Shown here piece after piece: positions 5,654 to 9,811 of a stretch of 64,000 nucleotides of DNA (position 1 is its first letter; each line of letters opens with the position of its first letter). The translations under genes were made by a program, and so were the position numbers. Source of the DNA: Anaerovibrio lipolyticus LB2005 (GTDB taxonomy: Bacteria; Bacillota; Negativicutes; Selenomonadales; Selenomonadaceae); contig NZ_JHYA01000005.1 in assembly GCF_000621545.1 (NCBI RefSeq), forward strand, positions 1 through 64,000, in the 5' to 3' direction. The notes under the pieces are model-generated. The model saw nothing but the letters and a program-made list of their open reading frames with translations. It ran no database searches and was not told where the DNA came from.

Positions 5654-5989
5654 ATGGAGCAGTTTAAGCTGGAGATTTACATACCGGAAAGTCATTTTAA
5701 GGAACTGCAAAGGGCGTTGCAGTCTGTAGATGCAGGACACATTGGCAATTACGACAGCTGCCTGTCCTATAGCCGTGTCAGAGGCACCTGGAGACCTCTT
5801 GCTGGTTCGAATCCATATATAGGGGAAGAAAATGTCATAAGTGAGGAAGATGAGCTGAAGGTGGAGGTAAATGTTCTAAAAGAAAATCTGCCTAGTACCT
5901 TGCAGGCCATCAGGAGTGTCCACCCTTACGAAGAACCGCTCATAAATGTTATCCAACTTTATGAGTACACAGAAGATGACTCAATGTAA
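5654..5989 (+). CDS. NIF3/YqfO-type PII-like (CutA-like) domain protein
   Basis: A 111-residue stand-alone version of the small alpha/beta domain found inserted in YqfO/NIF3 proteins and related to PII and CutA. The telling motifs are the start FKLEIYIPESHFKEL, the GNYDSC stretch and the terminal HPYEEPLINV. Its biochemical role is unknown. The ATG at 5654 has GAGGTG (5644-5649) upstream, overlapping the stop of the previous gene. A hairpin terminator follows at 6005. Confidence 0.75.
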   Translation: MEQFKLEIYIPESHFKELQRALQSVDAGHIGNYDSCLSYSRVRGTWRPLAGSNPYIGEENVISEEDELKVEVNVLKENLPSTLQAIRSVHPYEEPLINVIQLYEYTEDDSM

Positions 5990-6004
5990 AACCAATCCAA
6001 ACCA

Positions 6005-6041
6005 AAAAGCCAAGAGTGTCAGATAAGCACTCTTGGCTTTT
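6005..6041. terminator. Bidirectional terminator
   Basis: The 14-bp arms AAAAGCCAAGAGTG and CACTCTTGGCTTTT flank a 9-base loop. It lies between convergent genes ending at 5989 and 6055 and has T-runs on both strands. Confidence 0.85.
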
Positions 6042-6054
6042 GCTTTTTGCATAT

Positions 6055-6858
6055 TTATTTGGTTTCCTTGGCTAGCTCTTGTATTTCTTCTTGTGTTAAG
6101 TCAACATATTCCATAATTTCATCTACAGTTTTATTTTTGGCCAGCATGCGTTTAGCAGTACGGCGTTCAGCTATTTTTTCTCCGTCATTGCGGGCTTCCT
6201 GCATTTTCATTTCAAAGGTCATATAGCTCACCTTCTCCTTTTCTTGGTGCTTTAAATCGTTTATAAGGTTTCTGATTTCATCTACAAAATTATTGGTAAC
6301 CGGAAGTCCTTTCATAAAATCAAGAAAGGCCTTAATATCCGGTGATACATCATCCAATGCTCCATCAGAGCAGAGAAAAATCTTTGTGGTCCCATCATCC
6401 AGTATAATGTTTTTGTCCTGGGAACAGTACGACCGAAAAGTGTACATGTGTCGCTTTCCATCAAACATAGCAAATGGGCACAGAAAGATAATAAAAGATT
6501 TCTTAAGTTCAGTATAACGCTTGGTTCCAGAAGATAATATATCCTTGTCAATCATTGACTGATAATATCTTGTGCGATACGCCAATTCGGTATCACCATA
6601 ATCTCTGACTTGCATCTCAATATCGTAGATGACATTATTGCCTTCAACATACACATCAAGGCGAATGCCTTTTCCAGTGTAGCTGCTTTCCAGAGTCTTT
6701 TCCGTTTCAAGATATTTTATATGATTGATTTTGATGTTAAGAATTTTCTCGATAAGTCGTTGGCAAATACGAGGATGACGCATAACCAGCTTGAACATAT
6801 AGTCATCGGCTATTGTCAGTTCCTCCCACGGTTTGATGGTACGTTGTGATTTCCCCAT
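6055..6858 (-). CDS. Rpn family recombination-promoting nuclease / PD-(D/E)XK nuclease family transposase-like protein
   Basis: A 267-residue protein of the Rpn/YhgA-like group. The N-terminal half contains LTIADDYMFKLVM, then RLDVYVEGNNVIYDIEMQ, which gives the D...D-x-E-x-Q pattern of this PD-(D/E)XK nuclease branch, then YRTRYYQSMID. The C-terminal region is helical and charged. E. coli Rpn proteins are DNases that promote RecA-independent recombination. Such genes are mobile and occur in many divergent copies in gut anaerobes. It marks the left edge of an AT-rich accessory segment. There is no sign of flanking terminal repeats. Confidence 0.82.
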   Translation of the reverse strand: MGKSQRTIKPWEELTIADDYMFKLVMRHPRICQRLIEKILNIKINHIKYLETEKTLESSYTGKGIRLDVYVEGNNVIYDIEMQVRDYGDTELAYRTRYYQSMIDKDILSSGTKRYTELKKSFIIFLCPFAMFDGKRHMYTFRSYCSQDKNIILDDGTTKIFLCSDGALDDVSPDIKAFLDFMKGLPVTNNFVDEIRNLINDLKHQEKEKVSYMTFEMKMQEARNDGEKIAERRTAKRMLAKNKTVDEIMEYVDLTQEEIQELAKETK

Positions 6859-7264
6859 AATGAACTTCCTCTCCTTGATTATAGCATATTTGTTAATAAT
6901 AATAGATAAAATTATATAAAAGGTTTAATATATATTTATGATACAACATTTATCCTAAATAATCTATAAACCAAGAGGGTGATTTTTTAAAATATTAATC
7001 AAAAATGTAAAACTAACAAAAAATATAAGCATAATGCACAGGGGAAAGGGAGAGAAAGAAAATATGTTCCACACAGAGGGCGTTTTTTTGCTCATTGTAT
7101 TATTGCAATTATTGTTTAATAGGGTAAAATGAAGCTGTAAATGATTATTAACTAATCGTTATGTAATAAGATATAAGTTTAAGCGTTATATTTCTTGATA
7201 ATTAAATTTAAAGAGTGGAAAAATGGCTATGTCTGATACATAATTCATAACAGGGGGGATTAAT
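6859..7264. other. AT-rich intergenic region, no gene seen
   Basis: About 400 bases of very AT-rich sequence between divergent genes. It must hold promoters for both, but I could not pick convincing boxes. A strong ribosome binding site (GGGGGG, about 7254-7259) precedes the radical-SAM gene at 7265. No repeat or RNA gene was recognised. Confidence 0.4.
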
Positions 7265-7729
7265 ATGCTTTACTACACAGAAGTAGATTTAAGTTCATAC
7301 GAAATCCCCGGTGAAACAACTTTGAATATTTATATTTCCGGTTGTCAAAATAGGTGCATAGATTGCCACTATCCGGAATTACAGTCAAATGAATATGGTG
7401 AGCCATTGAATTTGAATTTTAAAAGAATTATTGAATTATATAGTAACTATGCTACATGTATTTGCTTTATGGGAGAAGGAAAAGGAACAATAGTAGAGCG
7501 GGATGAAATGCAAGAATATATTGAACTTATACATCTGGCTTCAATGAAAGCAGCTCTTTATTGTGGGAGAGACACAACAATAGAATCATGGATGGAAGAA
7601 TTTGATTATGTAAAAATAGGTAGATTTTATCCTGACAAGGGACCATTAACAGCTCCTACAACAAATCAGAAAATGTATATGAAGGAAAGAAATAAGTGGA
7701 TCGATATTACATATTCATTTTATTGTTGA
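7265..7729 (+). CDS. NrdG-like radical SAM protein (4Fe-4S single-cluster domain)
   Basis: A 154-residue protein, the same length as E. coli NrdG, the activase of anaerobic ribonucleotide reductase. Cys27, Cys31 and Cys34 form the C-x3-C-x2-C cluster motif of that family (SGCQNRCIDC). The C-terminal DYVKIGRFYPDKGPL corresponds in position to the NrdG D-x-L-x-D-G-x-F region. The usual SGGDPL glycine motif is replaced by FMGEGKG, and no nrdD is nearby, so its target may not be ribonucleotide reductase. It is the first gene of a three-gene cassette with an unknown protein and a nuclease-like protein. Confidence 0.75.
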   Translation: MLYYTEVDLSSYEIPGETTLNIYISGCQNRCIDCHYPELQSNEYGEPLNLNFKRIIELYSNYATCICFMGEGKGTIVERDEMQEYIELIHLASMKAALYCGRDTTIESWMEEFDYVKIGRFYPDKGPLTAPTTNQKMYMKERNKWIDITYSFYC

Positions 7730-7784
7730 TGCGATAAAGTATAAACAGACTTTTATTTAAGATGTTTCACCAGAGGTGAATGAT

Positions 7785-8147
7785 ATGATTAAAAGCATCA
7801 TGGAAACAAGATATGAGGAGTATCTTTTAGAAGATGATACAGTTATAGAAATTGATGGAAAAACATTTTATAAAGCTGTCTATGTTGAAAAATTAAGTGA
7901 AATAAAAATGATGTTTATTACACTGCCATTTGCAATGTTTAACGAAAAATATGGTAATATCGAAGGGCAATTACTAATTGATGAGTTTGGAAATGTTTTC
8001 AAAATTAGAGGTTTAGAATAGATACGGTTTATAGGAAATACTCCAAGCTGGTATTTTGAATGTGGAAAAATTTTTATAGATGCTCCAGAAAACATTGATA
8101 TGTCAATTGGAGAGTATTTTGCTTTGGAAAGTGGTGATCACAAATGA
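7785..8147 (+). pseudogene. Unknown gene interrupted by an in-frame TAG
   Basis: From the ATG at 7785 (AGAGGTG at 7772-7778) the frame runs 78 codons to TAG at 8019-8021. It then stays open in the same frame for another 41 codons to TGA at 8145-8147. The downstream part reads as real protein (IGNTPSWYFECGKIF, MSIGEYFALESGDHK). The final TGA overlaps the ATG of the next gene (ATGA at 8144), the classic spacing of an intact operon. The whole is therefore best seen as one gene of about 120 codons split by a premature amber codon, a sequencing error or programmed readthrough. I do not recognise the family. Confidence 0.65.
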
Positions 8148-8722
8148 ATATAGCAAAGAAAACAGGTAATGAGCCCATAATGGATAATTCTGGTAGAAAA
8201 GTGTCTATCGTTCGGGATTATTGGGCGTGGGCATATTCTTCTTTGATTGGTAATACTGAACGAGGTCGTTTTGCAGAATATTTGGTGGCTACAGCGTTGG
8301 GAGTTAATCATGGCGTTAGGTCAGAATGGGACAAATATGATTTAAAAACTGATAGTGATATTTCTGTTGAGGTGAAGGCATCAGGATATATACAATCTTG
8401 GAAACAGCGTGAACTTAGTAAGCCAGTTTTTAGCATAAAACCAACAAGAGCATGGGATAGTGAAACTCATAAATATAATGTCGAGGCAAAACGGCAAGCT
8501 GATGTGTATGTATTCTGCCTTCATAATTATGAGCATAAAGATGTAGGCTTAAATCCGTTGGATATGAACCAGTGGGAATTTTATGTAATTGCTACTAAAA
8601 AGTTGAATGAAATAATGCCAACCCAGAAAACAGTTTCACTCAGTAAATTAAAGCGTTTGAATGTTATACAGTGTAATTATGATAATCTAAAACAGACTAT
8701 AGAAAATGCTGTTAACAAATAA
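8144..8722 (+). CDS. Putative PD-(D/E)XK-fold nuclease, unknown family
   Basis: A 192-residue protein without a named family that I recognise. The pattern fits a restriction-endonuclease fold: Glu45 in a helix (GRFAEYLVATALG), Asp66 (KYDL) and a Glu76-x-Lys78 strand (ISVEVKASG), followed by an aromatic region with YVFCLHNYEH. No membrane segment or signal peptide. The start overlaps the end of the preceding unknown gene by four bases, so the two are translationally coupled. Together with the radical-SAM gene it forms an AT-rich cassette, possibly a defence or nucleic-acid modification system. That role is inference only. Confidence 0.6.
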   Translation: MNIAKKTGNEPIMDNSGRKVSIVRDYWAWAYSSLIGNTERGRFAEYLVATALGVNHGVRSEWDKYDLKTDSDISVEVKASGYIQSWKQRELSKPVFSIKPTRAWDSETHKYNVEAKRQADVYVFCLHNYEHKDVGLNPLDMNQWEFYVIATKKLNEIMPTQKTVSLSKLKRLNVIQCNYDNLKQTIENAVNK

Positions 8723-8764
8723 TACTTAAATATGGTGCATTTCAATATCGAAGTTTTTATATTT

Positions 8765-8794
8765 AGACTGGCAGATGGGGATGCCAGTCTTTTT
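8765..8794 (+). terminator. Terminator of the radical-SAM/nuclease cassette
   Basis: The arms AGACTGGCA (8765-8773) and TGCCAGTCT (8782-8790) form a perfect 9-bp stem followed by TTTT. Confidence 0.85.
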
Positions 8795-8846
8795 GTTGCC
8801 GGGAGTTTTATTTTTCCTCAAAATAATGTCCATATTTAGGAGTTTA

Positions 8847-8891
8847 TTCCTTTATTTAGGAATGTTTTTGGATTTCCTATTATGGTATAAT
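8847..8891 (+). promoter_or_regulatory. Probable promoter region of the aroE operon
   Basis: TGGTATAAT gives an extended -10 box (TATAAT at 8886-8891). No good -35 box was found. Just upstream lies the perfect inverted repeat ATTCCT-TTATTT-AGGAAT (8847-8864), a possible operator, with a second TATTTAGGA unit before it. Confidence 0.4.
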
Positions 8892-8953: not shown

Positions 8954-9811
8954 ATGATTACTGGGAAGACGAAGACGCTGGCGGTTATTGGCAATCCTGT
9001 GGCCCATTCACTGTCACCAGTGTTTCAGAATGCGGCTATTGAGGCAGCAGGGCTGGATTACATTTATACGGCATTTCCTGTGACGGATGGCAAGCTGGAG
9101 GCGGCAATAAATGGCATGAGGGCCATGGAAATTTCTGGTCTGAACGTCACTATTCCCCATAAGGAAAGGGTTATGAAATACCTCGATTCTATTGACAAGG
9201 ATGCGGAAATCCTTGGGGCAGTGAACACCATTGTAAACAAGGATGGCGTTTTAACCGGTTATAATACGGATGTAAAGGGCTTTGTTGGCGGCATGAAGGA
9301 GAAGGGCTTTGAGCCAAAGGGGAAAAAAGCGGTTCTTCTTGGTGCCGGCGGGGCGGCCAGAGCCATTATTTGGGGCCTGATTCAGGAAGGGGTCGCTTCC
9401 CTTACTATTGGTGTACGCAATGTGCCAAAGGTTCGTCCTCTGGTGGAGTATTTTTCCAAATACATGGAAATAACCCTGCTTGACTGGAGCACTGCGGAGT
9501 TTGAGACTGCGTTGGAAAAGGCAGAGCTTCTTATAAATGCTACTCCACTGGGGATGTGTCCCTACGTGGAGACTATGCCGCCTGTGAACTGGGATAAGGT
9601 GCCAAAGGGGATTTTGGCCTATGATATTATCTATACGCCGGCGGAAACTCTTTTCTTGAAGACAGCCCGTGAGCATGGCTGTGAGACCCTCAATGGTGAG
9701 GCTATGCTTGTAGGTCAGGGGGCTGAGTCTATGCGTCTTTGGACTGGTATTGAGCCAGATACTGAGGTCATGAAGAAGGCCCTGCGTCAGGCTTTGGAAG
9801 AACGAAAATAA
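8954..9811 (+). CDS. aroE: Shikimate dehydrogenase
   Basis: A 285-residue NADP-dependent enzyme that reduces 3-dehydroshikimate to shikimate in the shikimate pathway. The substrate domain shows GNPVAHSLSP and LNVTIPHKE (catalytic Lys), and YNTDVKGF follows. The cofactor domain has GAGGAARAI, and the C-terminal part has GEAMLVGQGAESMRLWTG. It opens a long same-strand run that continues with ruvA after 22 bases. Its product feeds chorismate, used by the trp and tyrA pathways also present in this window. Confidence 0.95.
   Translation: MITGKTKTLAVIGNPVAHSLSPVFQNAAIEAAGLDYIYTAFPVTDGKLEAAINGMRAMEISGLNVTIPHKERVMKYLDSIDKDAEILGAVNTIVNKDGVLTGYNTDVKGFVGGMKEKGFEPKGKKAVLLGAGGAARAIIWGLIQEGVASLTIGVRNVPKVRPLVEYFSKYMEITLLDWSTAEFETALEKAELLINATPLGMCPYVETMPPVNWDKVPKGILAYDIIYTPAETLFLKTAREHGCETLNGEAMLVGQGAESMRLWTGIEPDTEVMKKALRQALEERK

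Follow-up and report, generated by a model that had tools for sequence, protein, structure and literature searches.

Three small genes lie one after another on the same strand within positions 7265-8722 of the 64,000-nucleotide stretch of Anaerovibrio lipolyticus LB2005 DNA analyzed here, hereafter called the window. Do they form a functional unit, and if not, what are they? A previous sequence-only reading had proposed that these genes, here named P1, P2, and P3, constitute a cassette devoted to defense or nucleic-acid processing and located in an accessory island. Its description of the locus was borne out in part. The three ORFs are on one strand (Table 1), the last two overlap as ATGA (8144-8147), suggesting that P2 and P3 are co-transcribed here, and the setting is AT-rich, with a G+C content of 0.33 over positions 5990-8765 compared with 0.434 in the window as a whole and 0.495 in aroE.

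Table 1. Features of the locus upstream of aroE, with positions in the window.
Feature	Position	Strand	Basis
Variable accessory slot upstream of aroE, containing Rpn, P1, P2, and P3	5963..8765	.	blastn against nine syntenic regions; G+C content
Rpn-family recombination-promoting nuclease gene	6055..6858	-	TIGR01784, E 1.4e-28, 100.5 bits, above the cut-off of 52.1
P1, NrdG3-like radical-SAM protein, 154 aa	7265..7729	+	TIGR02826, PHROG 626, clade of six
P1 C-x3-C-x2-C cluster motif (C27, C31, C34)	7343..7366	+	invariant in 11 aligned sequences
P1 G70-E71-G72, shared across the clade; G-G in relatives	7472..7480	+	motif comparison, tree alignment
P2, ORF interrupted by an in-frame TAG, from a rare family without a name; possible GTG start at 7776	7785..8147	+	homolog in L198
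In-frame TAG within P2; homology extends past the stop	8019..8021	+	comparison with the L198 homolog
P3, PD-(D/E)XK nuclease-like protein, 192 aa, NhoI/PvuII-like predicted fold, no common partner	8144..8722	+	family alignment, model, fold search
P3 E45, putative metal ligand, invariant	8276..8278	+	59-sequence alignment
P3 D66, putative metal ligand, conservation of 90% or more	8339..8341	+	59-sequence alignment
P3 E76-V77-K78, (D/E)XK motif; E76 and K78 invariant	8369..8377	+	59-sequence alignment
Terminator-like stem-loop, flanking site	8765..8790	+	diverged copy in G008
aroE, shikimate dehydrogenase (read from sequence), right flank of the slot	8954..9811	+	relatives in 15 of 16 genus genomes, own included

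We compared the surroundings of the three genes with nine syntenic regions using blastn. Four regions aligned to both sides of the slot and the other five to the aroE side only. The alignment with the sister genome G008, whose aroE is 98% identical to that of the window, stopped at 5962 and resumed at 8766, with approximately 2.7 kb of different genes in between. Read from the sequence, these include a PIN-toxin/antitoxin pair and a transposase spread over two ORFs. Genome G002 also aligned to 5962 and resumed at 8796, with about 140 bases between the two points. Genome G014 aligned to 6239 and from 8830, its slot containing a fragment that matches the C-terminal part of Rpn, while G013 aligned to 4485 and resumed further out, only at 8882. 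P1, P2, and P3 sit in a variable AT-rich accessory island that adjoins aroE and the Rpn gene, in agreement with the sequence-only reading, whose Rpn assignment also holds (Table 1). The locus looks like a gene-swapping hotspot that gathers separate accessory genes. Three terminator-like stems were observed in this region when 0.4 were expected from shuffled sequences. One of them is the stem at position 8765, which had been taken as the single terminator of the three genes; the stem is there, but because a diverged copy lies at the same place in G008 with other genes, it belongs to the site and not to P1-P3.

The search for the three genes together elsewhere was negative. None of the 132 P3 loci fetched (two of which, L012 and L020, come from one contig) encoded P1 or P2 within the flanks examined (E ≤ 0.01). 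Likewise, P3 was absent from all 20 P1-family loci fetched, and P2 was found in one of these. On present evidence there is thus no three-gene unit, and we rejected the cassette as it had been proposed. A genuine but rare defense cassette, in which P1 would alter a nucleotide or activate a partner, P2 would link, and P3 would cut DNA, could account for the common strand, the ATGA overlap, the AT-rich island beside Rpn, and the joint presence of P1 and P2 homologs in one mobile element. Yet the combination is missing from both sets of loci, a stop codon interrupts P2, and PADLOC matches neither P1 nor the part of P2 that precedes the stop, and we consider this explanation very unlikely.

An in-frame TAG, overlooked in the sequence-only reading, interrupts the second gene (Table 1). 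Scans of the 81 residues before the stop against Pfam, NCBIfam, PADLOC, and PHROGs gave no clear match. The whole frame had no match in plasmids or phages and two weak matches in 380 genomes of the class, both of which were rejected as relatives, one (L164) being a partial 30% match within a 292-aa frame and the other (L165) lying antisense to another ORF. A homolog of 124 aa was found in the mobile-element contig L198 (L198:7445-7819, E 4e-9 at a database size of 1e6); its alignment with P2 scored 121 compared with a maximum of 57 among 2000 shuffles. It lies 1.8 kb downstream of a P1 homolog (52% identity to P1), on a contig without P3, and a link between P1 and P2 may therefore exist. A viral scan using both P2 sequences returned nothing beyond L198. 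As homology continues across the TAG, P2 of the window is best read as a full-length gene with a stop, or as a sequence error. P2 would be the broken remnant of a rare small protein, found once more near a P1 relative. A single-sequence model of P2 reached a pLDDT of 41.4 and was set aside. Contig L198 also carries, as read from its sequence, two large serine recombinases and HTH proteins, as well as an 868-aa protein (L198:447-3053) whose first part weakly matches STAND NTPases, possibly the product of a defense gene.

The stop codon in P2 could also be a sign that the cargo of the whole locus is decaying and that P1 and P3 are turning into pseudogenes as well, and the Rpn C-terminal fragment at the same site in G014 is consistent with such decay. 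P1 and P3 are, however, full length with their motifs intact, which makes general decay quite unlikely.

For P1, alignment confirmed both the C-x3-C-x2-C cluster (Table 1) and the absence of an SGGDP-type motif that had been noted previously, neither SGGD nor SGGE being present. P1 matched NrdG3 (TIGR02826) at E 3.5e-27 with 95.1 bits, short of the 151.7 bits set as the curated cut-off. The profile for the small subunit of anaerobic ribonucleotide reductase, PHROG 626, matched at E 2.6e-6, and Pfam Fer4_12 slightly under the Pfam cut-off. P1 resembles NrdG3 in its CxxxCxxCH cluster, its length, and its TTNQ motif, and it is 29-35% identical to the thirteen nrdD-linked members compared. The NrdG3 family is defined by pairing with an nrdD gene. 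P1 differs from it in its lower score, in G-E-G instead of G-G, in the absence of an adjacent nrdD, and in its position in a separate supported clade. With canonical NrdG (TIGR02491) it shares the radical-SAM cluster motif and an NQ near the C-terminus, but it is 20% identical to the NrdG of its own genome and scores 20.3 bits where the cut-off is 126.1. Prokaryotic viperins are also members of the radical-SAM superfamily; unlike them, P1 matched no PADLOC family at E ≤ 1, whereas it matches NrdG models, and a viperin identity was rejected. In NrdG and radical-SAM activases, a GGE-type motif serves SAM binding. No such motif was found in the tblastn segments of the six clade members, all of which read G-E-G (in the tree alignment, the last G of L154 is separated by gaps). 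With this change, P1 could have lost the usual way of binding SAM.

The clade containing P1 has six members (support 98/96), namely the window, four other genomes (G194, G215, G280, and G419), and one contig from a viral collection. Judged from its sequences, it is a small group with a putatively altered SAM motif and with no adjacent nrdD in the flanks seen. Using tblastn, nrdD was found neither in the 64-kb window nor in the available flanks of the other five members; on one side, three of these flanks extend over no more than 351, 449, and 1394 bases. The other fifteen relatives among the 21 loci compared have the G-G motif, and nrdD lies within 1 kb in 14 of them, the exception being the Lak phage locus L204. 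The contrast between G-E-G without nrdD and G-G with nrdD gives a Fisher p of 1.3e-4, a descriptive value, because the pattern had been spotted in the first loci before it was tallied over all 21, which are not independent draws. The G-G motif of L156 was taken from the tree alignment, and L197, which also has G-G, is placed by the tree with canonical NrdG. Relatives beside nrdD were seen in gut phages (crAss-like ones and others), in a Vibrio phage, in a plasmid record each from Prevotella and Pseudomonas, and in class and phylum genomes. The clade itself was present in 4 of 380 genomes of the class sample and 2 of 398 genomes of the phylum sample, the window's own included in each. Such a clade was not described among the matches listed in the literature on NrdG and defense or on NrdG3/TIGR02826.

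The lack of an nrdD partner reported earlier is true within the 64-kb window, but two nrdD genes and one canonical nrdG are found elsewhere in the genome. This nrdG scores over the cut-off on contig C4, and P1 was rejected as the housekeeping NrdG of the genome. P1 could still be a spare activase for a host NrdD, for example the second one, beside which no NrdG was seen. The presence of two nrdD genes for one canonical nrdG agrees with this idea, as does the retention of the cysteine and TTNQ motifs. On the other hand, P1 is absent from three genomes of the same genus (G008, G014, and G013) that likewise contain two nrdD genes and one nrdG above the cut-off, and the P1 carriers from other genera (G194, G215, and G280) have their own nrdG. 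Altogether, each of the 10 genomes checked, including four P1 carriers, has a canonical nrdG over the cut-off. We find a spare activase rather doubtful. Given the genome's own canonical nrdG, the three sister genomes with as many nrdD genes but no P1, and a clade without nrdD in the available flanks, P1 is probably not just the NrdG of a distant nrdD, a possibility that had been raised at the outset. In G194 (contig C61) and G215 (contig C148), which belong to one genus, the NrdD matches each hold a stretch with one in-frame TGA, which may encode selenocysteine or result from a gene break or an assembly error.

Most likely, P1 is an orphan NrdG-type activase that would act in trans. Its [4Fe-4S] cluster should cleave SAM to yield a 5'-deoxyadenosyl radical, through which a class III ribonucleotide reductase, or an enzyme related to it, would acquire its glycyl radical in trans. 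A different and highly speculative role would be that of a decoy or altered activase, the orphan clade binding the class III ribonucleotide reductase of a phage in trans and blocking or misdirecting its activation. The clade would be sister to phage-carried NrdG3, and the replacement of G-G by G-E-G at the SAM site would serve the decoy role. We give little credence to this proposal; if it were true, the phage would be starved of DNA precursors under anaerobic conditions.

The residues of P3 that had been singled out as a restriction-type site (E45, D66, and E76-x-K78) are conserved over an alignment of 59 sequences, from which three of the first-chosen loci (L037, L135, and L137) were omitted. 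R40, E45, E76, and K78 are invariant in this alignment, and N37, G41, and D66 are at least 90% conserved. The predicted structure (pLDDT 93.8) has a helix at residues 37-52 and a strand at residues 74-81. Among the matches listed, the best was NhoI (Z 10.1, 113 residues, 3.2 Å), followed by Eco15I (Z 9.7) and the homing endonuclease I-Ssp6803I (Z 8.7); the Holliday junction resolvase 2fco (Z 6.8), PvuII (Z 6.6), and EcoRV (Z about 5) were also retrieved, at values below 8 that, according to the tool's warning, may reflect merely a common arrangement. A restriction fold is confidently predicted for P3, in line with the nuclease fold expected by the sequence-only reading. No PDB chain matched P3 or its profile by sequence, and a fold search with P3 in a viral library gave only weak matches. 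The PADLOC name mREase_II was considered for P3 and rejected, as 15 of the 59 members match this model at E ≤ 0.01 with a best E of 1.4e-4. The model was found in 2 of 398 genomes, and one of these hits (L191) carries Q-x-K in a protein distinct from P3.

The BisI family of 5mC-dependent restriction enzymes, of which NhoI and Eco15I are members, works without a methyltransferase and has a PD-QxK catalytic motif and an (H/R)(V/I/T/M) methyl-binding motif (PMC11347163). P3 shares with this family the overall fold of its nearest predicted neighbors among the matches listed, as well as an Asn-x7-Glu spacing, N37/E45 of P3 corresponding to Asn42/Glu50 of NhoI (PMC11347163), a likeness that is suggestive only. 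It departs from the BisI family by having E-x-K, with an invariant E76, in place of Q-x-K, and by the lack of a sequence or profile match to PDB chains, and we do not class it as a BisI enzyme. P3 also falls in the fold class of the PvuII/EcoRV-type restriction endonucleases. Enzymes of the latter type come with a methyltransferase, whereas P3 showed no methyltransferase as a common partner.

One scan of bacterial genomes revealed 519 P3 relatives in genome contigs. We analyzed the best 80 of these 519 loci, reduced to 79 because no P3 ORF was recovered in L037. Viral contigs yielded a further 45 relatives, and P3 relatives were also detected in 14 plasmid records and in 3 phage records, of which two represent one and the same phage. 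In the genus of the window, P3 is present in 1 of 15 other genomes (G003, contig C51). An integrase gene lies within 700 bases downstream of P3 on the same strand in 24 of 46 phage/viral loci. In 17 of the 46, this integrase is accompanied by an HTH gene within 700 bases upstream, a count that rests on one HTH seed and on loci of which several are near-identical and not independent. With the same integrase and HTH seeds, nothing was found within 700 bases of P3 in the 79 genome loci, so that the phage placement applies to part of the family only. The position of P3 between an HTH gene and an integrase fits a defense role. Of the defense or nucleic-acid-processing cassette proposed earlier, the recurring unit is lost, while the predicted restriction fold of P3 and this placement, which fits but does not prove defense, are retained.

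The immediate neighbors of P3 in the genome loci include no common partner. We scanned 141 of 144 listed neighbor proteins (excluding two of L083 and one of L089), trimmed at 900 residues. Among the first 25 families listed, some neighbors match type I/IIG R-M, AbiEi, and other PADLOC models, and many are housekeeping proteins. Searching the 79 loci for C5-methyltransferase motifs, without a positive control, returned none. ORFs with a [DNS]PP[YFW] motif were found in 19 of the 79, some being real-looking amino-methyltransferases and some chance occurrences. Since some loci lie near amino-methyltransferase-like or R-M genes, P3 is an orphan only in the sense that it has no common partner.

Could P3 instead serve mobile elements, as a homing-type or junction-cutting nuclease, rather than defense? 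The fold matches to I-Ssp6803I and the Holliday junction resolvase would suit such a function, and so would the integrase adjoining P3 in about half of the phage/viral loci. NhoI and Eco15I, however, have higher Z values, P3 frequently occurs alone on the chromosome, and its neighbors include some that match R-M, AbiEi or other defense models. We therefore see a homing or junction-cutting function as possible but somewhat unlikely.

Several P3 loci have neighbors of their own. In a Selenomonadaceae MAG (L017:962-1642), a 226-aa radical-SAM protein (PF04055) of another family overlaps the start of the P3 gene and is itself preceded by a gene that reads as FtsZ-like. Two Selenomonadaceae-type loci (L018:4258-4959 and L019:664-1374) encode similar endonuclease/exonuclease/phosphatase-like proteins upstream of P3, as read from the sequence. 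In two different organisms (L021:4587-4922 and L025:4599-4934), a 111-aa protein of an unnamed family is encoded 24 bases upstream of P3, the two copies being 89% identical to each other; a relationship between this protein and P2 found no support (hhalign probability of 0.3%). Four closely related loci (L047, L099, L100, and L101) have a NUDIX-like gene, again read from the sequence, immediately after P3. In Rhodococcus (L015, L069, L071, and L089), P3 is located approximately 200 bases upstream of a large helicase whose N-terminus reads as restriction-endonuclease-like.

Taken together, we consider it slightly more probable than not that the slot holds independent accessory genes, with P3 a solitary restriction-type nuclease, P1 an orphan NrdG3-type activase, and P2 broken remains. 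A solitary restriction-type nuclease is also the most likely role for P3. It would be a metal-dependent PD-(D/E)XK endonuclease of NhoI/PvuII fold, probably homodimeric, and it may cut incoming, perhaps modified, DNA in defense of its host. Host DNA would be spared by a need for base modification or for a rare site, a need that is most likely because no common methyltransferase partner was observed in the family.

None of the libraries searched gives the P3 family its own name, and the interval between an HTH gene and an integrase, where P3 lies in some of its phage/viral loci, is the expected place of a superinfection-exclusion gene. As for the P1 clade, whose members come from one mobile element and a few genomes in the phylum to which the window belongs, it could illustrate how an activase does without a dedicated partner.
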